64,000 nucleotides of DNA, from positions 1-64,000 of the forward strand of contig CANQMW010000013.1 in the NCBI GenBank assembly GCA_947625045.1, given 5' to 3'. Under the pieces are notes generated by a model that saw nothing but the letters and a program-made list of their open reading frames with translations, made no database searches and had not been told where the DNA came from. Positions 4,074 through 48,543 of the stretch are shown here, piece by piece (position 1 is the first letter of the stretch; the number at the start of each line of letters is the position of its first letter). This stretch comes from an uncultured Oscillospiraceae bacterium. Lineage in GTDB: Bacteria; Bacillota; Clostridia; Oscillospirales; Oscillospiraceae. Position numbers and translations under genes: made by a program.

Positions 4074-5078
4074 TCAGCACCTGCTTTCCAGATACGCGTC
4101 GTAGAGGGCCACGGCCGCCGCCGCCTCCACGCAGGGCGCCGCCCGCAGGACGATGCAGGGGTCGTGGCGGCCCTGGACGGTGAGCTTCACCGGTTCGTGG
4201 GCGGTCAGGTCCACGCTGTCCTGCTCCATGCCGATGGAGGGCGTGGGCTTGAAGGCGGCCCGGAACACGATGGGCATGCCGCTGGTGATGCCGCCCAAAA
4301 TGCCGCCGTGGTTGTTGGTCCGGGTACGGACCACGCCGAAGTCGTCGAAATAGAAGGGGTCGTTGTTCTCGCTGCCCTTCATACCGCCCACGGCGAAGCC
4401 GGCGCCGAACTCCACCGCCTTCACGGCGGGGATGGCGAACACGGCCTGGGAGATGCGGTTTTCCATGCCCCCGAACATGGGCTCGCCCAATCCCGCGGGC
4501 ACGCCGGTGCAGATGCACTCGATGACGCCGCCCAGGGAGTCTCCCGCCTCCTTCGCGGCGGCGAGGGCGGATTCGATGGCGGCGGGCTCCGTGTGGCCGC
4601 CGATGGAGAGTATGCGGGCGGATATGGATATGCCCTCGGCCTCCAATAGCTGCAATGCCAGGCCCCCGGCGATGCAGAGCGGCGCGGTGAGCCGGCCGGA
4701 GAACTGGCCGCCCCCGGCCACGTCCCGGGAAAGGCCGTACTTCACCGCGGCGGCGAAGTCCGCGTGGCCGGGCCGGGGCACCCGGAAGAGGTTTTCATAG
4801 TCCTCCGAGCGGGTGTTGGTGTTGCGGATGATGGCGGTGACGGGCGCGCCGCAGGTGTGGCCGTCCACCAGGCCGGAGACGAATTCCGGCCTGTCGGCCT
4901 CTTTGCGGGTGGTTGTATACTTGCCCTTTCCTGGAGCCCGGCGGTCCAGGAAGGCCTGCAGAGCGTCCATGTCGGGGGCAAAGCCCACGGGCAGGCCCTC
5001 GATGGTTACGCCGATGGCGGGGGCGTGAGACTGGCCGAAGATGGTGAAGCGGTAGCGCTCTCCGAAGCTGTTACTCAT
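4074..5078 (-). CDS. aroC: Chorismate synthase
   Basis: 334 residues, somewhat shorter than the usual 360-390. It converts 5-enolpyruvylshikimate-3-phosphate to chorismate with reduced FMN. The N-terminal FGERYRFTIFGQSHAP motif and GLP(V)GF segment, the central GGQFSGR signature and the NNHGGILGGI signature are intact. It overlaps aroA by four bases and is followed two bases later by chorismate mutase. Confidence 0.95.
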   Translation of the reverse strand: MSNSFGERYRFTIFGQSHAPAIGVTIEGLPVGFAPDMDALQAFLDRRAPGKGKYTTTRKEADRPEFVSGLVDGHTCGAPVTAIIRNTNTRSEDYENLFRVPRPGHADFAAAVKYGLSRDVAGGGQFSGRLTAPLCIAGGLALQLLEAEGISISARILSIGGHTEPAAIESALAAAKEAGDSLGGVIECICTGVPAGLGEPMFGGMENRISQAVFAIPAVKAVEFGAGFAVGGMKGSENNDPFYFDDFGVVRTRTNNHGGILGGITSGMPIVFRAAFKPTPSIGMEQDSVDLTAHEPVKLTVQGRHDPCIVLRAAPCVEAAAAVALYDAYLESRC

Positions 5079-7355: not shown

Positions 7356-8185
7356 CCGTCTATCTCCTCCTTCCGGCGTTTGCCCTCCTCAAAGAGGGCG
7401 CACAGGCGGTCGAAATCATTCGCCGCGATGGCGTCCCGGTAGGCGGTGAGGCTCCCTATAAGAAAGTCCATCTCCGCGAGCATGTTGTCCCGGTTGTCCA
7501 ATATGAGCTCGCTCCACATGCCGGGATTGAGCCAGGCGACCCGGGTCAGGTCCTTGTAGCTGCCGGCAGAAAAGCCCTTGTGGCTTCCCGCGGCGGGGCT
7601 CTTGATATAGGCGTTGGACACCACGTGGCAGAGCTGAGACGTGAAGGCGATTATCTCGTCGTGGGCCTCGGCGGTGGTGACGCTGACCCGGCCGAAGCCG
7701 GCGGGCTTTAAGAGCGCCTTCACCCGCTGGAGGAATCCCGCGTCGTCGAACACAGGAGGCACGATGACCATGGGCGCCCTGTCGTAGAGGGTGGCCCGGG
7801 CGTACTTGTAGCCGGAATACTGGGTGCCCGCCATGGGGTGGCCGCCCACGAAGGTGAAGCCATGCTCCGCCGCGAGAGGGAACGCGAAGGCGCATACCTC
7901 CCGCTTCACGCCGGAGCAGTCCATGACGATCCCCGTCTTGGAGAAGTCGTCGGCATGGTCCCGGAGGTAGTCCATAGTGGCCTGGGGGTAGAGGGAGATG
8001 AGCACCAGGTCGCACTCCTTGAGCCGGTCCGGGGTGAGCTCGGCGTCTATGTCCCCCGCCAGCATGGCGAATTCCGTAGTGGAGCTGGTGCGGTTCCAGC
8101 CCAGGACGGTGACCGATGGGTCACGCTTATAGGCCTTGGCCAGGGAGCCTCCGATGAGGCCCAGGCCCACGATACCGACGGTCAT
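7352..8185 (-). CDS. tyrA: Prephenate dehydrogenase
   Basis: 277 residues. It oxidatively decarboxylates prephenate to 4-hydroxyphenylpyruvate, the committed step to tyrosine. The N-terminal Rossmann motif GIVGLGLIGGSLAKAYK, the DCSGVK stretch, the GGHPMAGTQYSGY motif with the catalytic histidine and the C-terminal helical dimerisation domain are present. No ACT domain follows, so end-product inhibition may rest elsewhere, with transcription control by the operon attenuator. It overlaps aroF by four bases. Confidence 0.94.
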   Translation of the reverse strand: MTVGIVGLGLIGGSLAKAYKRDPSVTVLGWNRTSSTTEFAMLAGDIDAELTPDRLKECDLVLISLYPQATMDYLRDHADDFSKTGIVMDCSGVKREVCAFAFPLAAEHGFTFVGGHPMAGTQYSGYKYARATLYDRAPMVIVPPVFDDAGFLQRVKALLKPAGFGRVSVTTAEAHDEIIAFTSQLCHVVSNAYIKSPAAGSHKGFSAGSYKDLTRVAWLNPGMWSELILDNRDNMLAEMDFLIGSLTAYRDAIAANDFDRLCALFEEGKRRKEEIDG

Positions 8186-33253: not shown

Positions 33254-34677
33254 GCGCATATCTGCGGAACGCGGCGGGCTTTCTCGTGCAGGTCTTCCCC
33301 TGCGTGCTGATGGTCTTCCTGCCCTTTTCCGAGGGGGCCTTCCGGTTCAGGAAGAAGACGGTCTTTGCCGCTCTCGCCGGGCTGGCCCTGGCTCTGGCGG
33401 CGCTGTTTCCCGCCCTGATGCGGGCCGCGGCGGACCGGGACCTGGCCCTGGGCGCCAACCTTTACATGCTGGCCGCCATACTGCTGACCCTGGCCGCCGA
33501 GAGCTGGCTGGTGCGGGAGGCGGCGATCAAAAAGGTCCTGGTGCTGTTCGCGGTGTTTTTCTACGGCGCGTCCCAGTACTGGCTGGTGAACATCCTCATC
33601 GGCGTGCTGGCCGAGCCGCTGGGCCTTTCCACGGAGCTTGAGAGCGGGGCCGTCTATTCCCCCTGCGGCCTGGTGATGTACGCCGTCACGGCGGTGCTCC
33701 TGTTCCCCATAATGGACCGGTTCGTGCTCCGGCCCCTGCGGGAGTACCTGCAGGAGATAGAGATGGAGCAGATGCGCCAGGAGTTTTTCATCCTGGTGGT
33801 GTCCACCGCCGTGTTCCTCGCCCTTCTGATGGGCGCGGACATGACGTTCTACCGGGTGGGCTACCGGCGGTATGTGCAGGAGATGCTGCTGTTCGTGGTG
33901 GTGCTGCTGGACCAGGTGCTCATCTACTGGCTGGTCTTCCGGGAGTCGGTGCGGCGCAAACGGGACAGCGACTACCAGCGGGCCATGGAGATGCAGCAGC
34001 TGCAATATGAGCGGATCGTCAGCGACATGGAGAGCACCCGGCGGATGCGCCACGACATGCGCCACCACTATAACGCCCTGAACGAGATGCTCCAGAAGGG
34101 AAAGCTGGAGGAGATGAAGGGGTACCTGGCCCAGGTGCTGGACGCCACCGGGCGGCGGCTGAACGAGGTCTACTGCAAAAACATGGTGGTGAACGGCCTT
34201 TTGCAGTACTACGCGGGCCTGGCCCGGGAGGAGGGCATCCGCTGCGTCATCCAGGCGGAGTGCGGCGAGCTGTCCATCGAACCGGCGGACCTGACGGTGC
34301 TGTTCGGCAACGCCCTGGAAAACGCGGTCAACGCCTGCCGGAAGTGCCCGGACGACAAGTGGATCCGGGTGCAGGTGGGCACGGTGCAGGGCTCCCTGGC
34401 CGTGGAGATAGCCAACGCCTGCCAGGGGGTCCGCCTGGACCGGCGCTACCAGACGGCGGACGGCTTCTCCCCGGCGGAGGCCTTTCTGAGCGACGGGAAG
34501 GTGGGCTACGGCCTGCGGAGCATAGCCCACACCGCCCAGAAATACGGCGGCAGCGCCATGTTCCGCTTCAACGGCGAGACGAAGACCTTCACGGCGCGGA
34601 TGCGGCTCAATATGCCCGCGAGCATGGAAAAAAGCGGGGGGGGGGTATTGGACCTTCCGCCCCGCTGGAACGAATAA
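33250..34677 (+). CDS. GHKL-type sensor histidine kinase (AgrC/HPK10-like)
   Basis: 475 residues. About six N-terminal membrane helices (residues 10-235) form the sensor. Then comes a coiled linker, the phospho-acceptor H268 in MRHDMRHHYN, and a GHKL ATPase domain with GNALENAVNA (N box) and GYGLRSIAH (G box). This is the AgrC/ComD class, which normally detects secreted peptides. A run of ten G at 34636-34645 lies after the last catalytic strand. Reading frame changes there give different tails: VLDLPPRWNE as sequenced, or a longer tail ending in an ATGA overlap with the next gene if one G is gained. Confidence 0.9.
   Translation: MSAYLRNAAGFLVQVFPCVLMVFLPFSEGAFRFRKKTVFAALAGLALALAALFPALMRAAADRDLALGANLYMLAAILLTLAAESWLVREAAIKKVLVLFAVFFYGASQYWLVNILIGVLAEPLGLSTELESGAVYSPCGLVMYAVTAVLLFPIMDRFVLRPLREYLQEIEMEQMRQEFFILVVSTAVFLALLMGADMTFYRVGYRRYVQEMLLFVVVLLDQVLIYWLVFRESVRRKRDSDYQRAMEMQQLQYERIVSDMESTRRMRHDMRHHYNALNEMLQKGKLEEMKGYLAQVLDATGRRLNEVYCKNMVVNGLLQYYAGLAREEGIRCVIQAECGELSIEPADLTVLFGNALENAVNACRKCPDDKWIRVQVGTVQGSLAVEIANACQGVRLDRRYQTADGFSPAEAFLSDGKVGYGLRSIAHTAQKYGGSAMFRFNGETKTFTARMRLNMPASMEKSGGGVLDLPPRWNE
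34636..34645 (+). repeat. G10 homopolymer near the 3' end of the sensor kinase gene
   Basis: Ten G after AGC. The length is the same as in peptide E and occurs in the same presumed operon. Frame changes would alter only the tail after the ATPase domain. Confidence 0.9.
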
Positions 34678-34717: not shown

Positions 34718-37606
34718 ATGAAGCTTCGGAAAGTATTGGCGTTCATCCTGGCGGCGGCCATGGTGCTGAGTCTGGGCCCCGCGGCCCTGGCGTCGGAGGA
34801 CGCTGCGGCCCTCTGCGAGCAGGGGTGGGAGGCCTTTGACGCGGGCGACACGGCGGGCGCGCTGGAAAAGTTCACCGCCGCGGCGGAGGCCGGCGACGGC
34901 GAGGCCGCCGGCATGCTGGCGTACATGTATACGGCCGGCGTGGGCACGGAGCCGGACCCGGAGCTGGCCTTCCAATGGGCCTCCCAGGGCGCGGAGACAG
35001 GCGACGCCGAGGCCCAGATGCTGCTGGGATATATGTATTACAGCGGCCAGGGCACCGAGCCGGATATGGACCTGGCCCGGCAGTGGTCTGAAAAGGCCGC
35101 GGACCAGGAAAACGCCACGGCCATCTTCAACCTGGCCCACATGTACGCCACCGGCGAGAGCGTGGAGCAGGATTACGAAAAGGCTGTGGAGCTCTATCAG
35201 CGCGCGGCGGACCTGGGCGAACCTGCGGCGCTGGTTGGTCTGGGCTATGCCTATGACGAAGGCCTGGGCGTGGAGAAAGATGACGCCAGGGCCGTGGAGC
35301 TCTACCAGCAGGCGGCGGACCTGGGCGTCCCCTCCGCCCAGCAGAACCTGGCCGTGATGTACTTCTACGGCGAAGGCGTGGAGCGGGACTGGGCCAAGGC
35401 CCTGGAGCTGGCCCAACAGGCGGCGGAGGGCGGCGACTTCAGCGGCATGGAGTTCATAGGCGAGTTCTGTGCCGAGGGCTACGGCGTCATGGACGTGGAC
35501 TATGTCCAGGCGGCGGAGTGGTACCAGAAAGCCGCGGACGCGGGCAATATCGAGGCCGCGTACCGGCTGGGCCGGCTATATGACAATGGCCTGGGCGTGG
35601 AGCAGGACGAGACAAAGGCGGAGGAGCTGTACGGCCAGGCCCTGGAGGCCATCCAGACCGGCGGCGAGCCCGCGGGGGCCACATCCCAGCGCATTTTGGG
35701 CGAGATGTACCGTCTGGGCCTGGCTGTGGAACAGGATCCTGACAAGGCCCTGGAACTGCTGACCCAGGCCTCCGACGGCGGCGACATGCTGGCGCCGGGC
35801 AAGCTGGGGTATATGTACCTCAGAGGCGAGGGCGTGGAGCAGGACTGCGCCAAGGCGCTGGAGATGTTCACCTTGGGCGCGGAGCGGCATGACACCTACG
35901 CGCTGGAGTGGCTGGGCGATATGTACTATGACGGCGAGGGCGTGGACCAGGATTACGCCAAAGCGGCGGAATATTACGAGGCCGCGGCGGAGCTGGGCAG
36001 CGCCTATGGCGGGGCGTATCTCTCCGCCATGTACTATACCGGCCAAGGCGTGGAGCAGGACGACGAAAAGACCCTTCTGTGGGCGGAAAAGGCCGCGGTG
36101 GGCGCCGGCAGCAACGGGATACGGGGCCTGGCCGCCAACAACACCGGCTGGTGCTATGAGTGCGGCATCGGCACGGCGGTGGATAAGGCCAAGGCCTTTG
36201 AATACTATACCCAGGGCGCGGCGCTTGGCAACGCGTATGCCCAGTATTCCATGGGCGACTTCTATGAACACGGCTACGGCGCGGTGGATATAGACTATTC
36301 TGAGGCGGCCCAATGGTACGAAAAGGCTGCGGAGCAGGACCATGCGCTGGCCGCCTACTGTCTCGCGAGGCTCTATAAAAACGGCCGGGGCGTGGAGGAG
36401 GACGACGCCAGGGCCGCGGAGCTCCTCGCCGCCGCCGTGGAGGACGGCGACTATAGGGCCGCGTACGACCTGGGCAGCATGTACTATTTTGGCAAGGGCA
36501 TGGACGTGGACTACGCCAAGGCTGTGGAATACTACCGCCTGGCGGCGGAGCACGGCGTGCCGGACGCCGCCTACAATCTGGCCTCTATGTACTATTTTGG
36601 CGAGGGCGTGGAGAAAGACTATGCCAAGGCCGCGGAATATTCCACCCAGGCCTCGGAGCTGGGCGACGCCGGGGCCATGTCGAACCTGGGCATTCTGTAC
36701 AGCTATGGCCAGGGCGTGGAGCAGGACTTCGGCAAGGCCTTTGAGCTCTTTTCCCAGGCGGCGGCGCTGGGCAACAGCGACGCCGTCAACGACCTGGCCG
36801 ATCTTTACGAGCACGGCTGGGGAGTGGAGAAGGACTATGAAAAGGCCTTTGAGCTCTACTCCCAGGCCTCGGATATGGGCATGAGCCTGTCCACCTGCAG
36901 CCTGGCGGAGTTCTACCTCTATGGCAAGGGCGTGGAGCGGAACGCCGCCAAGGCCCTTGAAATGGCCCAAAAGGCCGCGGACGCAGGCGACTCCAAGGGC
37001 ATGTGGCTGCTCGGCGACATCTATGACCGGGGCTACGGCGCGGTGGATGTGGACGACGCCAAGGCCGTAGAGTGGTATGAAAGGGCCCTGGAGGCGGACG
37101 GGGAAAACGCCGAGGCCCTGCTGTGGCTGGGCTCCATGTATGATCAGGGCACAGGCGTGGAGCAGGACCAGGCCAAGGCGGAAGAGCTCTACGGCCAGGC
37201 CGCCGCGCTGCTGCAGGAATGGGAGGCGGAGGACATCCTCTCCACCGGCGAGAAGTCCGCGCTGGGCCTGATGTACCTCATGGGCTGGGGCGTGGAAGAG
37301 GATGACGCCAAGGCCGTAGAGCTTCTCACTGCCGCGGCGGAGGACGACGACCCGGGGGCCCTGTATGCTTTGGGCAACTGCTATTATGACGGCGAGGGCG
37401 TGGACCAGGACTACGAAAAGGCATTTGAGTTCTATACCCAGGCGGCCGGATGGAGCGAGCCCCAGGCAGTCTATGCGCTGGGGGTGCTGTACTGGAACGG
37501 CGAAGGCGTGGAACAGGACGGCGCCAAAGCCATGGAACTGTTTGAGCAGGCCGCGGCGCTGGGCGAGGAACACGCCGCCCAGGCGCTGGCGGACCTGTCT
37601 GAATAA
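34718..37606 (+). CDS. Secreted Sel1-like repeat protein 1 (962 residues)
   Basis: A Sec signal peptide (MKLRKVLAFILAAAMVLSLG, cleaved near ALASED) is followed by an almost unbroken array of 36-residue Sel1-like repeats, about 26 by length. The repeat core is LGxMYxxGxGVEQDYAKAxExYxxAAELG. Sel1 repeats form an alpha-solenoid for protein-protein contacts, so it is probably an extracellular scaffold or receptor. There is no cell-wall anchor or lipobox. The first 50 coding bases and the ribosome site region (GGAGGTACATA) are nearly identical to those of the next gene, showing duplication. It lies 40 bases after the kinase gene. Confidence 0.9.
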   Translation: MKLRKVLAFILAAAMVLSLGPAALASEDAAALCEQGWEAFDAGDTAGALEKFTAAAEAGDGEAAGMLAYMYTAGVGTEPDPELAFQWASQGAETGDAEAQMLLGYMYYSGQGTEPDMDLARQWSEKAADQENATAIFNLAHMYATGESVEQDYEKAVELYQRAADLGEPAALVGLGYAYDEGLGVEKDDARAVELYQQAADLGVPSAQQNLAVMYFYGEGVERDWAKALELAQQAAEGGDFSGMEFIGEFCAEGYGVMDVDYVQAAEWYQKAADAGNIEAAYRLGRLYDNGLGVEQDETKAEELYGQALEAIQTGGEPAGATSQRILGEMYRLGLAVEQDPDKALELLTQASDGGDMLAPGKLGYMYLRGEGVEQDCAKALEMFTLGAERHDTYALEWLGDMYYDGEGVDQDYAKAAEYYEAAAELGSAYGGAYLSAMYYTGQGVEQDDEKTLLWAEKAAVGAGSNGIRGLAANNTGWCYECGIGTAVDKAKAFEYYTQGAALGNAYAQYSMGDFYEHGYGAVDIDYSEAAQWYEKAAEQDHALAAYCLARLYKNGRGVEEDDARAAELLAAAVEDGDYRAAYDLGSMYYFGKGMDVDYAKAVEYYRLAAEHGVPDAAYNLASMYYFGEGVEKDYAKAAEYSTQASELGDAGAMSNLGILYSYGQGVEQDFGKAFELFSQAAALGNSDAVNDLADLYEHGWGVEKDYEKAFELYSQASDMGMSLSTCSLAEFYLYGKGVERNAAKALEMAQKAADAGDSKGMWLLGDIYDRGYGAVDVDDAKAVEWYERALEADGENAEALLWLGSMYDQGTGVEQDQAKAEELYGQAAALLQEWEAEDILSTGEKSALGLMYLMGWGVEEDDAKAVELLTAAAEDDDPGALYALGNCYYDGEGVDQDYEKAFEFYTQAAGWSEPQAVYALGVLYWNGEGVEQDGAKAMELFEQAAALGEEHAAQALADLSE

Positions 37607-37634
37607 AAAATAATTGACCAGGGAGGTACATAAA

Positions 37635-40600
37635 ATGAAGCTTCGGAAGGTATTGGCATTGCTCCTGGCGGCGGCCATGCTGCTCGGCCTGTGCGCAGGC
37701 TGCGGCAAAAAGTCCGAGGAGATGTATGACGAGGCCATAGAGGCCATCCAGGGCGGCGACGCCGCCAAGGGCGAGGAACTGCTTGAAAAGGCGGCGGAGA
37801 AGGACTATGCTCCTGCCAGCGCGGCACTGGGCGACATGTATTCTTACGGCGAGGGCGTGGAGCAGGACTACGCCAAGGCCGCGGAGATGTACCAGAAGGC
37901 CGCAGACGGCGGCGACGGCGACAGCATGCTTCAACTGGGCACGTTGTATGCCTTGGGCGAGGGTGTGGAAAAGGACTTCGACAAGGCCTTTGAGCTGTTC
38001 ACCAAGGCCGCGGAGCTGACCCCTGAGGCCTGCGCCAACCTGGGTGTAGCCTACTGGAACGGCGCCGGCACGGAGAAGGACTACGGCAAGGCCGTGGAGT
38101 GCTGGACCAGGGGCTATGAGGAATGCGACGATGGTCCCTATAAGATCCAGTGCGCCGAGTGCCTGGGCAATGCCTATTATTACGGCCGGGGCACGGAGCA
38201 GAGCTTTGAGAAGGCCTTTAAGATGTTCTCCCAGGCCGCAGAGGCCGGTTCCGCCTACGCCCAGGAGTATATGGGCCGGATATATCAGTTTGGCTACGGC
38301 GTGGTGGACATAGACTGCGCCCAGGCGGCGGAATGGTACCAGAAGGCCGCGGACCAGGGCGACGCGGGCGGCATGGTATTCCTGGGCGACCTTTACGCCA
38401 GAGGCGAGGGCGTGGAGCAGGACGAGGCGAAGGCCGACGAGCTCTACGGCCAGGCGCTGGATACCCTCAACGAGGCCGGCGAGGACGCCCGGTATGAAAA
38501 CGGCTGGTTCCTCCTGGGCTATATCTACAAAAACGGCCTGGGCGTGGAGGAAGACGCCGACAAGGCCATGGAGTACTTTACTTCCTCCGCGGAGATCGGC
38601 GACCCGGACGGCATGTTCGATCTGGCCCGGTGCTATTACGAGGCGGGCGAGTACGACAAGGCCCTGGAGCTCATGAATGAGTGCGCGGACATGAACATGC
38701 CCGAGGCCCTGGTGCTGCTGGGCGTGATGTACGGCAGAGGCGAGGGCGTGGAGCAGGACTATGCCAAAGCCCTGGAGCTTCTTGAACAGGCCGAAGCCCT
38801 GGGCGACCCCTACGTCTGCTACTACCTGGCCGACATATACATGTACGGCCTGGGCGTGGAGGAGGACTATCCCAAGGCCCGGGAGTACTATGAGCAGACC
38901 ATGACCATCGCCGGGCTGGACGACGAGACCCTGGGCTACGTTTTGGAGAACGACGGCTGGTTCTATGAGTACGGCATGGGCGTGGAGATGGACAAGGCCA
39001 AGGCCTTCCAGCTCTACACCCAGTCGGCGGAGCTGGGGTATGTGGACGGCCAGACCTCTTTGGGCCGGTTCTACGACTACGGCTATGACGTAGTGGACAA
39101 GGATTACGCCACGGCGGCGGCGTGGTACCAGAAGGCTGCGGACCAGGGGGACGCCGAGGCCATGCTGTACCTGGCCTGGCTCTATGAGCAGGGCGAAGGC
39201 GTGGAGGTGGATAAGGACAAGGCCGGCGAGTTCTACGCGCAGGCCCTGGAGACCGCCTCGGAGAACGAGGATTACAGCTATAACGCGCTGGTGCTGGGCT
39301 ACCTTTACCTGGACGGCACCGGTGTGGAGCAGGACGATGAAAAGGCCCTGGCGTACTTCACCGCCGCGGCGGAGGACGATATCTTCGAGGCCGAGTGCCA
39401 GGCGGGCGTGCTGTATCTGCGGGGCTACGGCACGGAGAAGGACGAGGCCAAGGGCATTGAGCTGCTGGAAGACGCGGCGGCGCACGGCGTGCCCGAGGCG
39501 TACTACTATCTGGGCCAGGCCTATGTGACCGGCATCGGCGTGGAGCAGGACTATGAAAAGGCCCGGGAGTATCTGGAACAGGGCGAGGCTCTGGGCGACC
39601 CCTTCGTCAGCTTCCATCTGGCCGACATGTATATGTACGGCCTGGGCGTGGAGGAGGACTATGCCAAGGCGAGAGAGTACTATGAGAAGGCCCTGACCCG
39701 CACCGGGGTGAACGACTCCGCTCTGGGTCACGCCGCGGAGTGCGACGGCTGGTTTTATGAGTACGGCATGGGCGTGGAGATGGACAAGGCGAAGGCCTTC
39801 GAGCTCTACACCCAGTCGGCGGAGCGGGGCTATGTGGACGGCCAGACCTCCCTGGGCCGGTTCTATGACTACGGCTATGGCGTGGTGGACATAGACTACG
39901 CCAAGGCCGCGGAGTGGTACCAGAAGGCGGCGGACCAGGGCGACGCGGAGGCTATGCTGTACCTGGGCTGGCTCTATGAGCAGGGCGCGGGCGTGGAGAT
40001 GGACAAGGCGAAGGCCGACGAGCTCTATGCCCAGGCCCTGAAGGCCGCCTCGGAGAACGAGGACTACAGCTACAATCAGCTGGTGCTGGGCTACCTTTAC
40101 CAGCTGGGCTGCGGTATGGAGCATGACTCTGAAAAGGCCCTGGGATACTTCACCGCGGCGGCGGAGGACGATATCTTCGAGGCCGAGTGCCAGGCGGGCA
40201 TGATGTATCTGCGGGGCCGTGGCACGGAGAAGGACGCGGCCAAGGGCCTGGAGCTGCTGGAGGACGCGGCGGCCCACGGCGTGCCGGAAGCCTATCTCTA
40301 CCTGGGCCGCGCCTATGTGGACGGCGACGGCATAGAGCAGGACTATGAAAAGGGCCGGGAGCTGCTGGAACAGGGCGAGACCTTGGGCGCCGTCGACGCC
40401 AGTTTCTATCTGGCCGACATATATATGTACGGCCTGGGCGTGGACGAGGACTACGCCAAGGCACGGGAGTACTATGAGCAGTCCATGACCCGCGCCGGGA
40501 TCGACGATGAGTCCCTGGGCTACGCATTGGAGAACGACGGCTGGTTCTATGACTATGGTATGGGCGTGGAGATGGACAAGGCGAAGGCCTTTGAGCTTTA

Positions 40601-43600
40601 CACCCAGTCGGCGGAACTGGGCTATGTGGACGGTCTCACCTCCCTGGGCCGGTTCTATGACTACGGCTACGGCGTGGTAGACGTGGACTATGCCAAGGCC
40701 GCGGAGCTCTACCAGAAGGCCGCGGACCAGGGCGATCCCGAGGCCATGCTGTACCTGGCCTGGCTCTATAAACAGGGCGCGGGCGTGGAGATGGATAAGG
40801 CCAAGGCCGAGGAGCTCTTCTCCCAGGCCTTGGAGACCGCCTCGGAGGATGAGGACTATGGCTACAACCAGCTGGTGCTGGGCTATCTCTACGGATATGG
40901 CTACGGTGTGGAGGAGGACCTTGAAAAGGCCCTGGGATACTTCAACGCCGCGGCGGAGGACGACATCTTCGAGGCCGAGTGCCAGGCAGGCATACTGTAT
41001 CTCATAGGTCTCGGCGTGGAGCAGGACGCGGCCAAGGGCATTGAGATGCTGGAAGACGCCGCGGCCCACGGCGTGCCGGAGGCTTACTCCTATATGGGCG
41101 ATGCCTATCAGGCCGGCATCGGCGTGGAGCAGGACCTTGCCAAGGCCAAAGAGCTCTACGAGAAGGGCGCGGCCCTGAGCGGTATATGGTCCTTGACGGC
41201 CCTGGGCAATATGTATATGTACGCCGACGGGGTGGAGATGGACAAGGCCAAGGCCTTTGACTGGTACAGCCAGGCGGCGGCTCAGGAAGACGCGGACGCC
41301 ATGTATATGGTGGGCGACTTCTATGAAAGCGGCTATGGCGTGGTGGAGAAGGACCCGGCCCAGGCGGCGGCGTGGTACGAAAAAGCCGCGGCCCTGGACC
41401 AGGTGGAGGCCATGTGTTACCTGGCGGATCTCTATGAAGACGGCGAGGGCGTGGAAAAGGACGAGGCCAAGGCCCGGGAGCTTCGGGAGAGCCTGGCCGC
41501 GATCCTCACGGAAAAGGAGGCGTCGGGCGATCTCACCGCCGCCGAGGCGCAGATACTGGGCCATCTCTATTACTTCGGCTGGGGCGTGGAACAGGATTAT
41601 GAAAAGGCCTTTGCGTTCTACATGGCCGCCGCGGAGGCCGGCAGCTGGCCGGCGGTCCGGGACGTGGGCGACATGTATTACTGGGGCCAGGGCGTGGAGC
41701 AGGACCGCGAAGAGTCCGTGGAATTTTACAGCCAGGCGGCGGAGCACGGCATCCGCGCAGCCATGTACTCTATGGGCTATGCCTACGAGTACGGCGAGGG
41801 CGTGGAGCAGGACAACGCCCAGGCGATAGAGTGGTATGAAAAGGCCGCGGCCCTGGGGTATACCTACGCTCTGGATGAGCTGGGCTTTCTGTACGCCACC
41901 GGCGAGGGCGTGGACCATAACTACGACAGGGCCCTGGAGATATTCACCCAGGTGGCGGCGTCGGACGCGTCCGACGAGGAAAGAGGTTACGCGCTGTACA
42001 GCCTGGGCTATATGTACGGACACGGCTGGGGCGTGGAGGAAGACGACGCCAAGGCCTTCGAGTATTACACCCAGGGCGCGGAGCTGGGCGAGAGCCTGGC
42101 CATGAGCCGCCTGGGCAGCGCCTATGCCTACGGCCAGGGCGTGGAGCAAAACGCCGAAGAGGCCCTGAAGTGGTACACCAAGGCCGGGGAGGCCGGCAAT
42201 CCCGACGGCCCGGACTGCATGGGCGACATGTATATGTACGGCGTCGGGGTGGAGCAGGACTACGCCAAGGCCTTTGAGAACTACACCCAGGCCGCGGACA
42301 TGGGCGACGAGGACGCTCAGTTCCAGGTGGGCCGGTTCTATCAGTATGGCTTCGGCGTGACGGACAAGGACATAGCCCAGGCGGCGGCGTGGTACGAAAA
42401 GGCCGCCGAACAGAAGGACGAGGAGGGCATGCTGGCCCTGGCGCGGCTCTATATGACCGGCCACGGCGTGGAGAAGGATGAGGCCAAGGCCAAGGAGATC
42501 ATAGAGAGCCTGGCGGAAAAGCTCACGGAGAAGGAGGAAGAGGGCGCCCTCTCCTCCCCGGAGAAGCGGGTGCTGGCCACCCTTTACGTCAGCGGCGGCA
42601 TCCTGGACAAGGACGAGGAAAAGGCTGTGGCTCTCTATGCAGAGGCCGCGGAGGACGGTAACTACGAGGCGGCGGCCGCCCTGGCCGTCGCGTATCAGAA
42701 CGGCATCGGCGTGGAGAAGGATGAGGCCAAGGCCGCGGAGCTCTTCGCCCAGGCGGCGGAGCACGGCGTCATCCGGGCCATGTACGAGCTGGGCAGGATG
42801 TATTATAACGGCGCCGGCGTGGAGCAGGACTACGCCAAAGCGGCGGAGCTCTATGCCCAGGCGGCGGACCTGGGCTATGCTCCGGCCCAGAACGCCATGT
42901 CCAATGTGTATTATTTCGGCGAGGGCGTGGAGCCGGACTACGGCAAGAGCATGGAATACAGTGAACTTGCCGCGGATGAGAACAATGAGGACGAGGCAAG
43001 GGCGATCGCGCTCTACAACCTGGGCTATTTTTACGAATCGGGCGAGGGCGTGGAGCAGGACAGCGCCAAGGCGATAGAACTCTACAGCCAGGCGGCGGAC
43101 CTGGGCGACACCTGGGCCATGTACAACATGGCCGACATGTACATGTTCGCCGTGGGCGTGGAACAGGACCTGGCCAAGGCCTTTGAGCTCTACAGCCAGG
43201 CGGCGGAGCTGGGTGACGCCGAGGCCCAGTACATGGTGGGCGACTTCTATGAAAACGGCTTCGGCGCGGTGGATATAGACCAGGCCAAGGCCATAGAGTG
43301 GTACGAAAAGGCGGCGGAGCAGGACCAGCCGGAGGCCATGTTCTATCTGGCGTACGATTATGAGGACGGCGCGGGCGTGGAGCAGGATGAGGCCAAGGCC
43401 CAGGAGCTTTTCGACCGCCTGGCCGCCCTGCTCACCGCCAAGGACGAGGCGGAGCTGACCGGCACGGAGGCGCGGGTCCTCGCCTGCCTCTATGGCGATG
43501 GTCAGGGCGTGGAAGAGGACGACGTTAAGTCCGCGGAGCTCATGGCCGCCGCCGCGGAGCAGGACGACTACCGGGCCGTGCACTATCTGGGCCAGGACTA

Positions 43601-46600
43601 TGCCGCCGGCTGGGGCGTGGAGCAGGACTATGACAAGGCCGTGGAGCTCTACACCCTGGCGGCGGAGCACGGCGTGCGCCGGGCGATGTACGAGCTGGGC
43701 GCGATGTATCTGAGCGGCGACGGCGTGGAACAGGACTACGCCAAGGCGATCGAGTGGATCGAAAAGGCGGCGGAGCAGGACCTCCCCGAAGCCTATTACA
43801 CCCTGGGCTGGATGTATGCCCACGGCAACGGTGTGGAGGAGGACGGCGCCAAGGCTGTGGAGTACTATACCCGGGCCGCGGAGCTGGGCAACGTCTACGC
43901 CGCGAACAACCTGGGCTGGATATATGGAACCGGCACGGCCGTGGAGCAGGACTATGACAAGGCCATAGAGTATTATACCCAGGCGGCGGATATGGGCGAC
44001 GCCTACGCCGCGTACAACCTGGGCTGGTTGTATGAAAGCGGCGAGGGCGTGGAGCAGGACTATGACAAAGCCGTGGCGTATTACACCCAGTCGGCGGACC
44101 TGGGCTACGACTGGGCCATGCTGAACCTGGGCTATATGTACAGCCGTGGCCACGGCGTGGAAAAGGATGATGAAAAGGCCTTTGAGCTCTACAGCCAGGC
44201 GGCGGAGCTGGGTAACAGCACGGCCATCAATAACTTGGGCAATATGTATGAGCTCGGCTGGGGCGTGGAGAAGGACTATGACAAGGCTATTGAGCTCTAT
44301 ACCCAGGCCGCGGATATGGGCGAAGGCCTGGCCTTAACCAACCTGGGCGACATGTACGAGCGCGGCCATGGCGTGGAGAAGGACAAGGCCAAGGCCGTGG
44401 AGCTGTATACCCAGGCCGTGGATATGGGCGACAGCCATGGGATGTACCGCCTGGCAAAGCTCTATCTCTACGGCCAGGGCGTGGAGCGGGACGCCGCCAA
44501 GGCCCTGGAGCTGGCCCAACAGGCCGCGGACGCGGATGATTCCTACGGCATGCTGCTGATGGGCGAGCTCTGTGACATGGGCTTCGGCGCGGTGGACGTG
44601 GATGACGCCCAGGCCGTGGCGTGGTATGAGAAGGCCCTGGAGGATGACGATGAAAACGCCGAGGCCATGGTGCAGCTGGGCTCCATGTATGACCACGGCG
44701 AGGGCGTGGAAAAGGACGAGGCCAGGGCCGCGGAACTCTATGCCCAGGCCGCCCCGCTGCTGCAGGGGTGGGAAGAGAGGGACACTCTTTCCGCCAGCGA
44801 GCAGGCACTGCTGGGCAAGATGTACGTCAACGGCGACGGCGTGGAAAAAGACGAGGCCAAAGGCATAGAGCTCTTGACCGCCGCGGCGGAGGACGACAAT
44901 CCGGACGCCCTGTACACCCTGGGCACCCTCTATTACCACGGCGTGGGCGTGGAGCAGGACTATGCCAAGGCGGTGGAATACCTGACCGCCGCGGCCGGAT
45001 GGAGCGAGCCCCGTGCCGTCTGCGCGCTGGGGAATATGTATTGTTACGGCGAGGGTGTGGAGCTTGACAAGGCCAAGGCCTTCGAACTCTACAGCCAGGC
45101 CGCGGAGCTGGGCAGCGCCGACGCCATGTATATGGCGGGCGACTTCTATGAAAACGGCTGCGGCGTGGTGGATATAGACCTTGCCAAGGCCGTGGAATGG
45201 TACGAAAAGGCGGCGGAGCAGGACCAGGCGGAGGCCCTTTATAATCTGGCCGGATGCTATGAGGACGGCAAGGGCGTGGAGCAGGACGAGGCCAAGGCCC
45301 AGGAGCTTTACGACAGCCTGGCCGCCCGGCTCACCGCCATAGACGAGAGCGAGCTCACCGCCGCGGAGGCCCGTATCCTCGCCTGCATGTATGAACTGGG
45401 CCAGGGCGTGGAGAAGGACGAGGCCAAGTCTGCCGAGCTCATGGCCGCCGCCGCGGAAGGGAACGACTGCCGGGCCGTGTACTATCTGGGCCAGTTCTAT
45501 TATCACGGCGTCGGCGTGGAAAAGGACGCCGCCAAGGCCGCGGAGCTCTATACCCAGGCGGCGGAGCACGGCGCGCGCCGGGCGATGTACGACCTGGGGT
45601 ATCTCTATTACGCCGGTGAAGGCGTGGACCAGGACTACGCCCAGACGGTCCAGTGGCTTGAAAAGGCGGCGGAGCAGGAGCTCCCCGACGCTTATTACAA
45701 CCTGGGCTACCTGTATGCCGCCGGTGAAGGTGTGGAGCAGGACTATGGCAAGGCCGTGGAGTATTACGAAAAGGCGGCGGACCTGGGCGATGCCGACTCT
45801 GCGTACAACCTGGGCTTCATGTATGACCACGGCGAGGGCGTGGAGCAGGATTATGCCAAAGCCGTGGAGTATTACAGCCGGGGCGTGGAGCTGGGCAGCA
45901 GCTGGGCCATGGTGAACCTGGGCTATATGTACAGACACGGCGAGGGCGTGGAGAAGGACTATGACAAGGCCTTTGAGCTCTACAGCCAGGCGGCGGAGCT
46001 GGGCGACAGCACGGGCCTCAACAACCTGGCCGTGATGTACGAGAACGGACAGGTCGTGGAAAAGGACTATGAAAAGGCCGCCGAACTGTACACACAGGCC
46101 GCGGATCTGGGCGAGGGCTCGGCCATGAACAGCCTGGCGGAGTTCTACCTCTACGGCAAGGGCGTGGAGCGGGACGCCGCCAAGGCCCTGGAGTGGGCCC
46201 AAAAGGCCGCGGACGCGGGCAATTCCGACGGCATGCTTTTGATGGGCAAGCTCTATGACCTGGGCTTCGGCGCGGTGGACGTGGACGCCGCCCAGGCCGT
46301 GGCGTGGTATGAGAAGGCCATGGAGGCGGACGATGAAAACGCCGAGGCCATGGTACAGCTGGGCTCCATGTATGACCAGGGCGCGGGCGTGGACAAGGAC
46401 GAGGCCAAGGCCGGTGAGCTCTATGCCAAGGCCGCCGCGCTGCTGCGGGAGTGGGAAGAGGAGGACGACCTCTCCACCAGAGAGCAGGCACTGCTGGGCA
46501 AAATGTACGTCAACGGCGACGGCGTGGAAAAGGATAAGGCCAAGGGCGTGGAGCTGCTGACCAAGGCGGCGGAGAACGACGACCCGGACGCCCTGTACGA

Positions 46601-46868
46601 TTTGGGCACCCTCTATTACCACGGCGCGGGCGTGGACAAGGACTATGCCAAGGCGGTGGAATACCTGACCGCCGCGGCCGGATGGAGCGAGCCCCGTGCT
46701 GTCTACATGCTGGGGACCTTGTACATGAACGGCGAGGGCGTGGAGCAGGACGAGGCGAAGGCCGCGGAACTGTTCACTGAGGCCGCGGCGCTGGGCATTG
46801 AGGACGCCGCCCAGGCGCTGGAGGAACTGGCGGCGGAGCCCGCCGCCAGCGAGGCGCCTGCCGCGTAA
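37635..46868 (+). CDS. Giant Sel1-like repeat lipoprotein (3077 residues)
   Basis: A signal peptide ends in GLCAGC, a lipobox-like motif (C23), so the protein is probably tethered to the membrane surface. The rest is an unbroken run of about 84 Sel1-like repeats by length, with no enzymatic domain and a short Ala/Glu/Pro tail. This is far longer than usual Sel1 proteins. Three near-identical 792-base blocks (around 38.76-41.13 kb) and a 1,683-base-spaced pair (around 44.5 and 46.2 kb) show recent expansion. The C-terminal module (ERDAAKALE..., AAGWSEPRAV) is shared with Sel1 protein 1. The ATG at 37635 has GGGAGG upstream and lies 28 bases after the previous stop. Confidence 0.9.
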   Translation: MKLRKVLALLLAAAMLLGLCAGCGKKSEEMYDEAIEAIQGGDAAKGEELLEKAAEKDYAPASAALGDMYSYGEGVEQDYAKAAEMYQKAADGGDGDSMLQLGTLYALGEGVEKDFDKAFELFTKAAELTPEACANLGVAYWNGAGTEKDYGKAVECWTRGYEECDDGPYKIQCAECLGNAYYYGRGTEQSFEKAFKMFSQAAEAGSAYAQEYMGRIYQFGYGVVDIDCAQAAEWYQKAADQGDAGGMVFLGDLYARGEGVEQDEAKADELYGQALDTLNEAGEDARYENGWFLLGYIYKNGLGVEEDADKAMEYFTSSAEIGDPDGMFDLARCYYEAGEYDKALELMNECADMNMPEALVLLGVMYGRGEGVEQDYAKALELLEQAEALGDPYVCYYLADIYMYGLGVEEDYPKAREYYEQTMTIAGLDDETLGYVLENDGWFYEYGMGVEMDKAKAFQLYTQSAELGYVDGQTSLGRFYDYGYDVVDKDYATAAAWYQKAADQGDAEAMLYLAWLYEQGEGVEVDKDKAGEFYAQALETASENEDYSYNALVLGYLYLDGTGVEQDDEKALAYFTAAAEDDIFEAECQAGVLYLRGYGTEKDEAKGIELLEDAAAHGVPEAYYYLGQAYVTGIGVEQDYEKAREYLEQGEALGDPFVSFHLADMYMYGLGVEEDYAKAREYYEKALTRTGVNDSALGHAAECDGWFYEYGMGVEMDKAKAFELYTQSAERGYVDGQTSLGRFYDYGYGVVDIDYAKAAEWYQKAADQGDAEAMLYLGWLYEQGAGVEMDKAKADELYAQALKAASENEDYSYNQLVLGYLYQLGCGMEHDSEKALGYFTAAAEDDIFEAECQAGMMYLRGRGTEKDAAKGLELLEDAAAHGVPEAYLYLGRAYVDGDGIEQDYEKGRELLEQGETLGAVDASFYLADIYMYGLGVDEDYAKAREYYEQSMTRAGIDDESLGYALENDGWFYDYGMGVEMDKAKAFELYTQSAELGYVDGLTSLGRFYDYGYGVVDVDYAKAAELYQKAADQGDPEAMLYLAWLYKQGAGVEMDKAKAEELFSQALETASEDEDYGYNQLVLGYLYGYGYGVEEDLEKALGYFNAAAEDDIFEAECQAGILYLIGLGVEQDAAKGIEMLEDAAAHGVPEAYSYMGDAYQAGIGVEQDLAKAKELYEKGAALSGIWSLTALGNMYMYADGVEMDKAKAFDWYSQAAAQEDADAMYMVGDFYESGYGVVEKDPAQAAAWYEKAAALDQVEAMCYLADLYEDGEGVEKDEAKARELRESLAAILTEKEASGDLTAAEAQILGHLYYFGWGVEQDYEKAFAFYMAAAEAGSWPAVRDVGDMYYWGQGVEQDREESVEFYSQAAEHGIRAAMYSMGYAYEYGEGVEQDNAQAIEWYEKAAALGYTYALDELGFLYATGEGVDHNYDRALEIFTQVAASDASDEERGYALYSLGYMYGHGWGVEEDDAKAFEYYTQGAELGESLAMSRLGSAYAYGQGVEQNAEEALKWYTKAGEAGNPDGPDCMGDMYMYGVGVEQDYAKAFENYTQAADMGDEDAQFQVGRFYQYGFGVTDKDIAQAAAWYEKAAEQKDEEGMLALARLYMTGHGVEKDEAKAKEIIESLAEKLTEKEEEGALSSPEKRVLATLYVSGGILDKDEEKAVALYAEAAEDGNYEAAAALAVAYQNGIGVEKDEAKAAELFAQAAEHGVIRAMYELGRMYYNGAGVEQDYAKAAELYAQAADLGYAPAQNAMSNVYYFGEGVEPDYGKSMEYSELAADENNEDEARAIALYNLGYFYESGEGVEQDSAKAIELYSQAADLGDTWAMYNMADMYMFAVGVEQDLAKAFELYSQAAELGDAEAQYMVGDFYENGFGAVDIDQAKAIEWYEKAAEQDQPEAMFYLAYDYEDGAGVEQDEAKAQELFDRLAALLTAKDEAELTGTEARVLACLYGDGQGVEEDDVKSAELMAAAAEQDDYRAVHYLGQDYAAGWGVEQDYDKAVELYTLAAEHGVRRAMYELGAMYLSGDGVEQDYAKAIEWIEKAAEQDLPEAYYTLGWMYAHGNGVEEDGAKAVEYYTRAAELGNVYAANNLGWIYGTGTAVEQDYDKAIEYYTQAADMGDAYAAYNLGWLYESGEGVEQDYDKAVAYYTQSADLGYDWAMLNLGYMYSRGHGVEKDDEKAFELYSQAAELGNSTAINNLGNMYELGWGVEKDYDKAIELYTQAADMGEGLALTNLGDMYERGHGVEKDKAKAVELYTQAVDMGDSHGMYRLAKLYLYGQGVERDAAKALELAQQAADADDSYGMLLMGELCDMGFGAVDVDDAQAVAWYEKALEDDDENAEAMVQLGSMYDHGEGVEKDEARAAELYAQAAPLLQGWEERDTLSASEQALLGKMYVNGDGVEKDEAKGIELLTAAAEDDNPDALYTLGTLYYHGVGVEQDYAKAVEYLTAAAGWSEPRAVCALGNMYCYGEGVELDKAKAFELYSQAAELGSADAMYMAGDFYENGCGVVDIDLAKAVEWYEKAAEQDQAEALYNLAGCYEDGKGVEQDEAKAQELYDSLAARLTAIDESELTAAEARILACMYELGQGVEKDEAKSAELMAAAAEGNDCRAVYYLGQFYYHGVGVEKDAAKAAELYTQAAEHGARRAMYDLGYLYYAGEGVDQDYAQTVQWLEKAAEQELPDAYYNLGYLYAAGEGVEQDYGKAVEYYEKAADLGDADSAYNLGFMYDHGEGVEQDYAKAVEYYSRGVELGSSWAMVNLGYMYRHGEGVEKDYDKAFELYSQAAELGDSTGLNNLAVMYENGQVVEKDYEKAAELYTQAADLGEGSAMNSLAEFYLYGKGVERDAAKALEWAQKAADAGNSDGMLLMGKLYDLGFGAVDVDAAQAVAWYEKAMEADDENAEAMVQLGSMYDQGAGVDKDEAKAGELYAKAAALLREWEEEDDLSTREQALLGKMYVNGDGVEKDKAKGVELLTKAAENDDPDALYDLGTLYYHGAGVDKDYAKAVEYLTAAAGWSEPRAVYMLGTLYMNGEGVEQDEAKAAELFTEAAALGIEDAAQALEELAAEPAASEAPAA
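38760..41135 (+). repeat. Three tandem 792-base higher-order repeats in the giant Sel1 gene
   Basis: The landmark GACGGCTGG (encoding DGWFY...YGMGVEMDKAKAF) begins at 38952, 39744 and 40536, exactly 792 bases (264 residues) apart. Flanking segments such as GLGVEEDYAKAREYYE and EDDIFEAECQAG recur with the same period. The outer limits given are approximate. Confidence 0.8.
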
Positions 46869-46944: not shown

Positions 46945-47163
46945 ATGAGCGAGGAAAAGAGACTGGACGAGAAGAAACTGGAAGAGGTCACCGGCGGGGT
47001 CTCTGATGAGTCTGATGAGGAGATAAGCGCGTTTTATGCGGCCAATTGCGGCTGCTGCCAGAGGCAGAACAAATGTCCCCTCTCTCGCAATAGGTGGGAA
47101 TTCTATGGCAGATTTAAAACCCTCGGCGGATGCTCTGCCCGCATACAGGCCGAGCCGAACTGA
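46945..47163 (+). CDS. Double-glycine leader, cysteine-rich small peptide A
   Basis: 72 residues. Residues 1-18, MSEEKRLDEKKLEEVTGG, look like a double-glycine leader of the kind cut by C39-peptidase ABC exporters. An acidic spacer and a core NCGCC...KCP...LGGC follow. This copy is the most diverged and lacks CPYG. AGGAGG lies 8 bases before the ATG and the sequence to the ATG (GGAGGCTCGACCT) recurs, with one change, before peptides F and G. No known bacteriocin family is recognised. Confidence 0.75.
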   Translation: MSEEKRLDEKKLEEVTGGVSDESDEEISAFYAANCGCCQRQNKCPLSRNRWEFYGRFKTLGGCSARIQAEPN

Positions 47164-47183
47164 CGCAGAAGGAGGAACATACT

Positions 47184-47408
47184 GTGAACGACGAAAAGAG
47201 ACTGGATGACGAGGCTTTGGAAAACGTGTCCGGCGGGACCGGGAATGATGAGGATGATTTCCTGTACGACTTTACCATGAACAATTGCCAACACTGCAGC
47301 AAGGCCCTGAATGCCGCCTATTATAAGACGGCGACGTACTGCGATCCGATGTCGAAGTACGGCGCGGTCCATGGCGACGGAAATGCGCGCTGCCCCGATA
47401 TCTGCTGA
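47184..47408 (+). CDS. Double-glycine leader, cysteine-rich small peptide B
   Basis: 74 residues starting at a GTG (AGGAGG 8 bases upstream). The leader (M)NDEKRLDDEALENVSGG is followed by an acidic spacer and a core NNCQHCSKALN..., then TYC, ARCP and a final C. The CxxC and CP positions match the family; the CPYG motif is replaced by CDPM. It begins 20 bases after peptide A. Confidence 0.72.
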   Translation: MNDEKRLDDEALENVSGGTGNDEDDFLYDFTMNNCQHCSKALNAAYYKTATYCDPMSKYGAVHGDGNARCPDIC

Positions 47409-47429
47409 AAAACCAAGGAGGAACATACC

Positions 47430-47636
47430 ATGAGCGAAGAGAAGAGACTGAACGACGAGACCCTGGAGAACGTGTCCGGCGGGAGCCAGGGGCCGGATAA
47501 CGATCCGTTCCATTCCTTTTTGGCCAGCAATTGCGCCCGTTGCCGTTTGGCCTGGGACTGTCCCTATGGGGGCAGCGATAAGGCCTTCAGCCAGCTGGGC
47601 GCGGGCGCGAAGTGCCTGAAGATGGAGGCCTGGTGA
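47430..47636 (+). CDS. Double-glycine leader, cysteine-rich small peptide C
   Basis: 68 residues. Leader MSEEKRLNDETLENVSGG; core SNCARCRLAWDCPYGGSDKA then FSQLGAGAKCLKMEAW. It shows the family pattern C-x2-C-x6-C-P-Y-G-...-AF-x2-LG-...-C. The codons of the double glycine are GGC GGG, not a G run. Its stop overlaps the ATG of peptide D (TGATG region), so translation is coupled. Confidence 0.78.
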   Translation: MSEEKRLNDETLENVSGGSQGPDNDPFHSFLASNCARCRLAWDCPYGGSDKAFSQLGAGAKCLKMEAW

Positions 47637-47851
47637 TGAACGACGAAAAGAGACTGGATGACGAGGCTCTGGAAAAGGTGTCGGGCGGTCAGGGCGAGTC
47701 TATGAATGCGAATAAGGTATATATATTTGCGGCTAAAAACTGTTTTCATTGCAGCCACAATGAAGTTGACTGTCCCTATGGGGGACACAAGGAGGCCTTC
47801 AAAGAATTGGGCTGCGACCTGAACGCGAAGTGCCCCTATAAGGGGGTTTGA
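47636..47851 (+). CDS. Double-glycine leader, cysteine-rich small peptide D
   Basis: 71 residues. Leader MNDEKRLDDEALEKVSGG; core KNCFHCSHNEVDCPYGG then HKEAFKELGCDLNAKCPYKG. It carries the four family cysteines plus one after LG. GGAGG 7 bases upstream lies inside the end of peptide C. The double-glycine codons are GGC GGT, so this copy is not slippage-prone. Confidence 0.78.
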   Translation: MNDEKRLDDEALEKVSGGQGESMNANKVYIFAAKNCFHCSHNEVDCPYGGHKEAFKELGCDLNAKCPYKGV

Positions 47852-47854
47852 CCT

Positions 47855-48086
47855 ATGAACGACGAAAAAAGACTGGACGACGAGGCCCTGGAAAAAGTGT
47901 CGGGGGGGGGGTCCAACGATGCAGTATCAGTATAGATTCTATGAGAATAATTGCCATTCTTGCCGTAAGTATAACACCCTCAACCATAACACCAACACCT
48001 GGAACTGTCCCTATGGTACGATCGAAGATGCCTTCAAAGAATTGGGCAGCAGCCCGTACGCGAAGTGCCCCTGTAAGGAGGCTTGA
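47855..48086 (+). CDS. Small peptide E, out of frame at a G10 tract (phase-off copy)
   Basis: The leader MNDEKRLDDEALEKVSGG is intact, but a run of ten G at 47902-47911 spans the double-glycine codons and shifts the frame, giving a stop at 47933-47935 after 26 residues. With nine G the frame continues through a full core (YQYRFYENNCHSCRKY..., WNCPYGTIEDAFKELG, KCPCKEA) to the TGA at 48084-48086, 76 residues. The core is otherwise undamaged, with no other stop or frameshift, which favours a switchable gene over a dead one. Confidence 0.7.
47902..47911 (+). repeat. G10 homopolymer at the double-glycine site of peptide E
   Basis: Ten G directly after TC of the serine codon. Nine or twelve G would place the core in frame with the leader. 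Confidence 0.9.
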
Positions 48087-48089
48087 CCT

Positions 48090-48290
48090 ATGAACGACGA
48101 AAAGAGACTGGACGAGAGCACCCTGGAAAATGTGTCGGGGGGGGGTGGGGGTACAACGCATTATAGATTCAAGGAGAATAATTGCTTTTCCTGCCGCCAC
48201 AATAACACCCCGAACTGTTACTATGGGAGCAGCATAACAGCTTTTGAAACGCTGGGCGTGGGCGCGAAGTGCCCCCATAAGGAGGCTTGA
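48090..48290 (+). CDS. Double-glycine leader, cysteine-rich small peptide F
   Basis: 66 residues. Leader MNDEKRLDESTLENVSGG runs into extra glycines (GGGTTH); core NNCFSCRHNNTPNCYYG..., AFETLGVGAKCPHKEA. Its nine-G tract at 48137-48145 keeps leader and core in frame. AAGGAGG lies in the last codons of peptide E, so translation is probably coupled to that gene. Confidence 0.76.
   Translation: MNDEKRLDESTLENVSGGGGGTTHYRFKENNCFSCRHNNTPNCYYGSSITAFETLGVGAKCPHKEA
48137..48145 (+). repeat. G9 homopolymer at the double-glycine site of peptide F
   Basis: Nine G, one T, then five more G. With nine G the gene is in frame. Confidence 0.9.
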
Positions 48291-48293
48291 CCT

Positions 48294-48497
48294 ATGAACG
48301 ACGAGACCCTGGAAAAAGTGTCGGGGGGGGGCGACGAGGCTGATGATATGAATCGTATTATTAGCTTTGAACGGAAGAATTGTTATTCCTGCTACCGACA
48401 GGTCTTCAGGACCTGTCCCTATGGTTCGGGCGAAGATGCCTTTGTAGCATTGGGCAGCAGCATATACGCGGTGTGCCCTGATAAGGAACGCATATAA
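48294..48497 (+). CDS. Double-glycine leader, cysteine-rich small peptide G (shortened leader)
   Basis: 67 residues. The leader is only MNDETLEKVSGG: the EKRLDD part seen in the other copies is missing, a clean in-frame loss. Core KNCYSCYRQVFRTCPYG..., EDAFVALGSSIYAVCPDKE. A nine-G tract at 48323-48331 spans the double-glycine codons and is in frame. It is the last peptide gene before the locus terminator. Confidence 0.76.
   Translation: MNDETLEKVSGGGDEADDMNRIISFERKNCYSCYRQVFRTCPYGSGEDAFVALGSSIYAVCPDKERI
48323..48331 (+). repeat. G9 homopolymer at the double-glycine site of peptide G
   Basis: Nine G following TC; leader and core are in frame at this length. Confidence 0.9.
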
Positions 48498-48503
48498 GAT
48501 AAA

Positions 48504-48543
48504 GACCCTCCCTGCCGCGTCAGGCGGCAGGGAGGGTCTTTTC
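48504..48543. terminator. Terminator of the Sel1/peptide locus
   Basis: A perfect 15-bp stem (48504-48518 with 48524-48538) with T run on the right and A run on the left. It closes the presumed plus-strand operon and also serves the acyltransferase gene on the minus strand. Confidence 0.9.

Follow-up and report, generated by a model that had tools for sequence, protein, structure and literature searches.

Poly-G tracts at the double-glycine codons of leader peptide genes: probable contingency loci in an uncultured Oscillospiraceae bacterium

Introduction

The best-known cases of phase variation by poly-G tracts come from Gram-negative bacteria of mucosal surfaces. A double-glycine leader is recognized by its Gly-Gly end and by hydrophobic residues at positions -4, -7, and -12, and an adjacent transporter is not always required for a precursor of this type.

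The closest described system is the nap island of Neisseria gonorrhoeae. Its genes napR and napC code for bacteriocin-like peptides with double-glycine leaders: in the 5′ region of napR, a poly-G tract of 6–12 determines by its length whether the peptide has a GG leader, and napC contains a poly-T tract; the nap genes were judged phase variable in a study of more than 10,000 isolates (PMC11798529). napR is the nearest precedent for a poly-G tract in a GG-leader peptide gene (PMC11798529). This means that the kind of locus is already known and that the arrangement described here, in the neighboring peptide genes E, F, and G, is a variation on it. In napR, as there described, the length of the tract removes the leader, whereas in E, F, and G the leader and the cut site are constant and it is the core that changes. 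In addition, unlike in the described part of the nap system, several tract-bearing paralogues stand side by side here, the genome contains many more tracts, and the phylum is different.

Many poly-G/C contingency loci per genome, both between and within genes, have been described in Campylobacter (PMC8355987). The large number of G/C tracts is shared with the present genome; in the accessible part of that report, the context is host colonization and invasion, and there is no mention of cut-site tracts in exported leader peptides. In Cutibacterium (Propionibacterium) acnes, a Gram-positive commensal, 54 variable tracts were reported, nearly all of them G or C, which lie between genes or affect the reading frame, as they do here (PMC4746626). 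Their variation tracks the clades, the authors propose slow accumulation, and the accessible text mentions no tracts at the cut site of leader peptides (PMC4746626). Searches of an open-access library brought up no case of a poly-G tract placed where leader and core meet.

Results and discussion

Arrangement of the peptide gene cluster

The analyzed stretch of DNA, hereafter the window, covers positions 1–64,000 of contig 13 of the source genome (G000; 2.93 Mb, 73 contigs). Seven small genes, A to G, all in the same direction on the forward strand, occupy 46945–48497, between an open reading frame (ORF) of 3,084 residues on the 5′ side and, on the 3′ side, a terminator-like hairpin read by eye at 48504–48542 (15-base arms at 48504–48518 and 48524–48538, then four T). 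Gene A, with a double-glycine leader, spans 46945–47163; B, with a GTG start, 47184–47408; C, 47430–47636; and D, the start of which overlaps the stop of C, 47636–47851. E (47855–48086), F (48090–48290), and G (48294–48497) follow. D to G are tightly packed: three bases separate the stop of each gene from the start of the one that follows, whose ribosome-binding site sits inside the final codons of its predecessor. The two very long adjacent ORFs upstream, at 34718–37606 (962 residues) and 37614–46868 (3,084 residues), have export-signal-like starts and Sel1-like repeats; in the larger ORF, Sel1 repeats were detected in the first 329 residues, the part covered by the scan.

The leaders of A to G are similar to MNDEKRLDDEALEKVSGG. 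In the aligned peptides, valine at -4 and leucine at -7 are found in six of six, and leucine at -12 wherever the leader is of full length. The cores have an NCxxC motif in common, and CPYG-like and AKCP-like motifs occur in most of them. When A, B, C, D, F, and G were compared with Pfam and NCBIfam, no curated family reached its cut-off. One tract-bearing peptide passes Pfam Nif11 (PF07862), at 25.0 against 23.8. Structural modeling of F from 12 sequences reached a mean pLDDT of 52 and was set aside.

The source genome has one C39-peptidase ABC transporter, composed of Peptidase_C39, ABC membrane, and ABC ATPase domains, at position 5704 of contig 34. Its best model is TIGR03796 (NHLP type), with 799 bits against a cut-off of 853, the translation having ended at the edge of the locus. 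In this match, and in the peptide that passes Nif11, the present system resembles the NHLP/Nif11 system (TIGR03796, TIGR03798, PF07862); it differs in that the six window peptides fall below every curated cut-off and in that the exporter, on contig 34, is not adjacent to the cluster on contig 13. The peptides would be cut and exported in trans by this single transporter.

G-runs at the double-glycine codons

A sequence-only reading of this DNA had placed runs of 10, 9, and 9 G on the double-glycine codons of E, F, and G, and counting confirmed them at 47902–47911 in E, 48137–48145 in F, and 48323–48331 in G. In all three, the junction consists of TC and the G-run, so that TCG GGG GGG encodes Ser-Gly-Gly. 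Nine G were held to be in frame, and indeed F (66 residues) and G (67 residues, with a shorter leader) are open as they stand. The ten-G copy was held to be out of frame with an intact core. This agrees with E, the tract length of which is taken as it stands in the draft assembly: its leader frame ends with VSGG followed by a tail of eight residues, GSNDAVSV, and a stop at 47933–47935, and a different frame, open as far as 48086, contains the intact cysteine-rich core. The mixed codons noted for the other copies were likewise found, the glycines of A to D being encoded by GGC-GGG or GGC-GGT.

The rest of the window contains a single further run of at least 8 G, at 34636–34645 (10 G). It lies at the 3′ end of a 475-residue ORF with the look of a sensor kinase, and has 9 G in the sister genome G023.

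Length spectrum of the G-runs

On both strands of the whole source genome, 78 overlapping 8-mers and 49 9-mers of G were counted, which correspond to 29 runs of at least 8. Since 28 of these have 9 to 11 G (10 runs of 9, 15 of 10, and 3 of 11), only one is exactly 8 long. Runs of exactly 8 are similarly few against longer ones in three other genomes: 4 versus 31 in G023, 3 versus 33 in G011, and 6 versus 45 in G032. In these four genomes, which belong to one gut lineage, the number of long G tracts ranges from 28 to 45 per genome, and many of the tracts lie within exported-peptide genes. A sample of 181,750 bases of G000, drawn regardless of G-runs, contained 53 runs of 6 G, three of 7, two of 9, and three of 10, and no run of 8.

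The total number of runs is not high. First-order copies of the window contained a mean of 4.9 runs of at least 9 each, that is, composition predicts more long runs than are seen, and 20.5 G 8-mers were expected in the window against 10 seen. This means that long G-runs are avoided, apart from a separate class of 9–11. The Poisson probability of three such runs within 430 bp is ~1e-8, but the three are not independent because E, F, and G are paralogues. In the seven window ORFs, GGG accounts for 12.1% of the glycine codons and TCG for 12.4% of the serine codons. Chance combined with codon bias is ruled out by the placement of the tracts and by the length spectrum; the total number of runs is no argument. 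The unusual features are the placement and the missing class of 7–8.

Tract lengths in sister genomes

Matches to the peptide profile were found in 13 of 35 genomes of the genus, G000 included. G023 is a sister genome with an orthologous cluster. Its F orthologue has TCC and nine G, where F has TC and nine G, and the two share a stretch of 122 identical bases reaching from the tract into the core. The one extra base leads to VSGG followed by GWGYNAL in G023, with the core out of frame; the same core is therefore in opposite phases in two sister species. Other copies in G023 include two in-frame ones of G type, with nine G each, and H, with mixed codons. The cluster at 46945–48497 and locus L070 (5082–6648) are mosaic paralogues, in which leaders, cores, and the last ten residues are shuffled among the copies and both species.

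For a wider comparison, tracts of at least 9 G were paired by reciprocal best matches of their 400-base flanks, which gave 26 pairs (14 between G000 and G023, 12 between G011 and G032, all four being draft assemblies) and replaced an earlier hand-picked set with 10 of 24 unequal. The tract length is unequal in 11 of the 26 pairs and equal in 15; under a stricter cut (500 aligned bases, 85% identity) it is unequal in 7 of 19. At the background indel rate measured in 150-base flanks, 2.0 unequal pairs would be expected among 26 (p ~2e-6) and 1.5 among 19 (p ~4e-4). Examples are a pair with 11 versus 9 G and flanks 98.1% identical, and one with 9 versus 10 G and flanks 96.4% identical. Because at least 9 G was required on both sides, losses of tracts are uncounted in these figures. 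E has no clear orthologue; its best match (72.6%) is included in the pair list and may not be a true orthologue. A single fixed length in the relatives, which the sequence-only reading had regarded as incompatible with slippage, is thus not what was found, either in these pairs or in the F orthologue.

Peptides of this kind do not depend on the tracts: genome G022, with 19 peptide matches, lacks runs of 9 G. Runs of at least 20 G, often clustered, were seen in two further genomes of the genus (G001, contig 108 at 3024–3043, contig 114 at 4481–4506, and contig 228 at 7604–7630; G002, contig 116 from 4844); these are an artifact or another repeat class.

The genome-wide poly-G set

The tracts of E, F, and G belong to a genome-wide poly-G set. 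Eight of the 28 tracts of G000 are in leader-peptide genes, namely E, F, and G and five genes of the MSEDKKTLGGGLTPEQ and Nif11-like MNEKMLKELLGGGKTPEE types, in which the tract comes early in the leader. Among the 36 leader-class tracts counted, 14 are in frame and 22 out of frame, approximately as in random phase (p 0.48 against one third). This count left out G011_L201 and G032_L183, leader-like rows that resemble non-leader frames, as well as one extra in-frame G-type copy of G023 and G011_L114_4488. Contexts with identical ends were merged, so that 30 are shown for the 31 tracts of G023 and 43 for the 45 of G032.

A second leader class has its tract at codons 7–8, where an R-Gly-Gly motif precedes LTPEQ. 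It is represented by L045, L065, and L068 in G000, by L114, L197, and L205–L207 in G011, and by L182, L187, L190, L192, L217, L221, and L227 in G032, and is mostly out of frame in the latter two genomes. Peptides with tandem leaders and a tract at a V-A-Gly-Gly site were also observed in G011 (L214:1908) and G032 (L225:1988 and 2438); all three are out of frame, and their cores are glycine-rich and contain cysteine.

Seven of the 28 tracts of G000 lie in promoter-like spacers, with TTG at -35, a TATAAT-like box 0–3 bases past the tract, and a spacing of 17–18; several of these tract promoters are alike. Runs of 9–11 G before a TATAAT or TACAAT box are found at L036, L038, L042, L059, L060, L063, and L069 in G000 and at L157, L163, L169, and L170 in G023. 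Among 134 contexts from the four genomes, a -10-like hexamer starts within 8 bases past the tract in 17, compared with a mean of 3.4 across 49 other bins. Since a neighboring bin holds 11 and two distant bins 11 and 12, the promoter signal is real but not clean. The spacer tracts could tune promoter spacing. Downstream of several of them in G000, the next ORF begins with MKKRALSL, which is signal-peptide-like. At L040, a G-run with 10 versus 9 G between the sisters is located at the start of an ORF with the look of a LytTR regulator.

Constraint on out-of-frame genes

The out-of-frame cores were read from the DNA as it stands. In three reciprocal-best pairs that are out of frame in both genomes, dS was 0.31 and dN 0.11, corresponding to a dN/dS of 0.37 (p ~2e-5). 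Pooling of five such pairs gave 0.38; this figure includes the less certain L197/L227 and L207_2055/L221, which are not reciprocal best and are absent from the figure of 0.37; one subset of these two by itself gave 0.41 (p 0.065). A regulator-like ORF with an early tract, in frame in G023 but not in G000, had a dN/dS of 0.10 over 132 codons.

Constraint is not uniform. For F and its G023 orthologue, dN/dS was 4.0, a value due to their differing tails, and in two pairs that are in frame there were 5–6 replacement changes and no silent ones. On balance, the pattern is the one expected from reversible switching and not from decay; there are also signs that the cores evolve fast.

Proposed mechanism and alternatives

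E, F, and G are probably slipped-strand contingency loci, that is, phase-variable double-glycine-leader peptide genes in which the leader and the cut site are kept in every phase. The tracts of this lineage show what such loci are recognized by: a homopolymer early in the frame or in a promoter, a length difference between relatives that changes the frame, and constrained out-of-frame alleles. Where leader and core meet, slipped-strand mispairing in the G-run would alter its length and thereby the frame of the core. The leader and Ser-Gly-Gly would stay constant at any length of about 7 G or more, so that each phase keeps the cut site and the cargo alone changes: it would be either the cysteine-rich core or a short tail, which is GSNDAVSV in E and GWGYNAL in the G023 copy of F. 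Cells within one clone would then have differing subsets of the peptides. What is observed here is the sequence, the frames, the unequal lengths between sister species, the constraint on cores that are out of frame, and the presence of the transporter; slippage within the strain, processing of the peptides, and a function for them are inferred.

The sequence-only reading had proposed an on/off switch with a constant leader, an interpretation that the sister genomes support. The constancy of the leader stands, because the leader and Ser-Gly-Gly precede or lie inside the tract. The on/off part is open to refinement, since the out-of-frame phase still encodes a leader, a cut site, and a short tail, and may swap the cargo instead of simply switching it off.

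Three alternatives to slipped-strand switching were weighed. It seems quite unlikely that the lengths result from errors in sequencing or assembly and that all copies are truly in frame and fixed. The assemblies are drafts, homopolymers are error-prone, and the NODE names in the sister records point to short-read metagenome bins; however, runs of 9–12 G are short enough to be read through, copies out of frame predominate (22 of 36), the tracts are located at promoter spacers and leader sites, and their positions recur across separately assembled sister genomes. Alternatively, RNA polymerase or the ribosome might slip on the G-run, so that both products are made at once from unchanged DNA. Slippage on homopolymers is a generally known phenomenon, and it would also account for the constraint on out-of-frame cores. 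We give this explanation little credence, as the length of the DNA itself is unequal between sisters and the tracts in promoter spacers have no frame to correct.

The out-of-frame copies might also be decaying pseudogenes, in which the tracts grew slowly by duplication and drift and do not act as a switch, along the lines of the slow accumulation proposed in the accessible text on C. acnes (PMC4746626). The 14 of 36 tracts in frame are what random phase would give, and the families are multi-copy and mosaic, so that single copies may be dispensable. This alternative is nevertheless improbable: cores that are out of frame in both sisters stay open and under constraint (dN/dS 0.37), the runs hold at 9–11 where the flanks diverge, and neither E nor the G023 copy of F has a second lesion in its core. 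Loss of mismatch repair was rejected as a cause, since a MutL-type domain is present in six of six genomes searched, G000 included. The presence of this domain also means that slippage would be damped, which is a point against switching.

If the tracts do switch, a single clone would present many combinations of peptides. This would bear on gut competition and signaling, as well as on why genes of this kind pass for pseudogenes. Placement at the cut site would uncouple the export signal from the cargo. A bolder reading, which we put forward tentatively and consider rather doubtful, is that of a frame-proof cargo switch: poly-G being the only homopolymer whose own codons encode Gly-Gly, every phase would retain a working export signal and export a different peptide, either the complete cysteine-rich core or a short tail of the GSNDAVSV or GWGYNAL kind, giving a combinatorial secretome of dozens of peptides per clone. 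If it were true, the variable secretome would join tracts in leader peptides, promoters, and regulators.

Distribution in the family

The cut-site pattern was matched in 7 of 400 genomes of the family, and a reversed-pattern control in 1 of 400. Beyond G000 and G023, the other five matches (L237 and L240–L243) were not recognizable by eye as leader peptides. The leader-start pattern was matched in 2 of 400, both of this genus; G011 and G032 are outside both 400-genome tables. In the genus, many double-glycine leaders are accompanied by zinc-ribbon-like cores, e.g., CDEC...CPDC (L022, L025, L122, L123, and L124).
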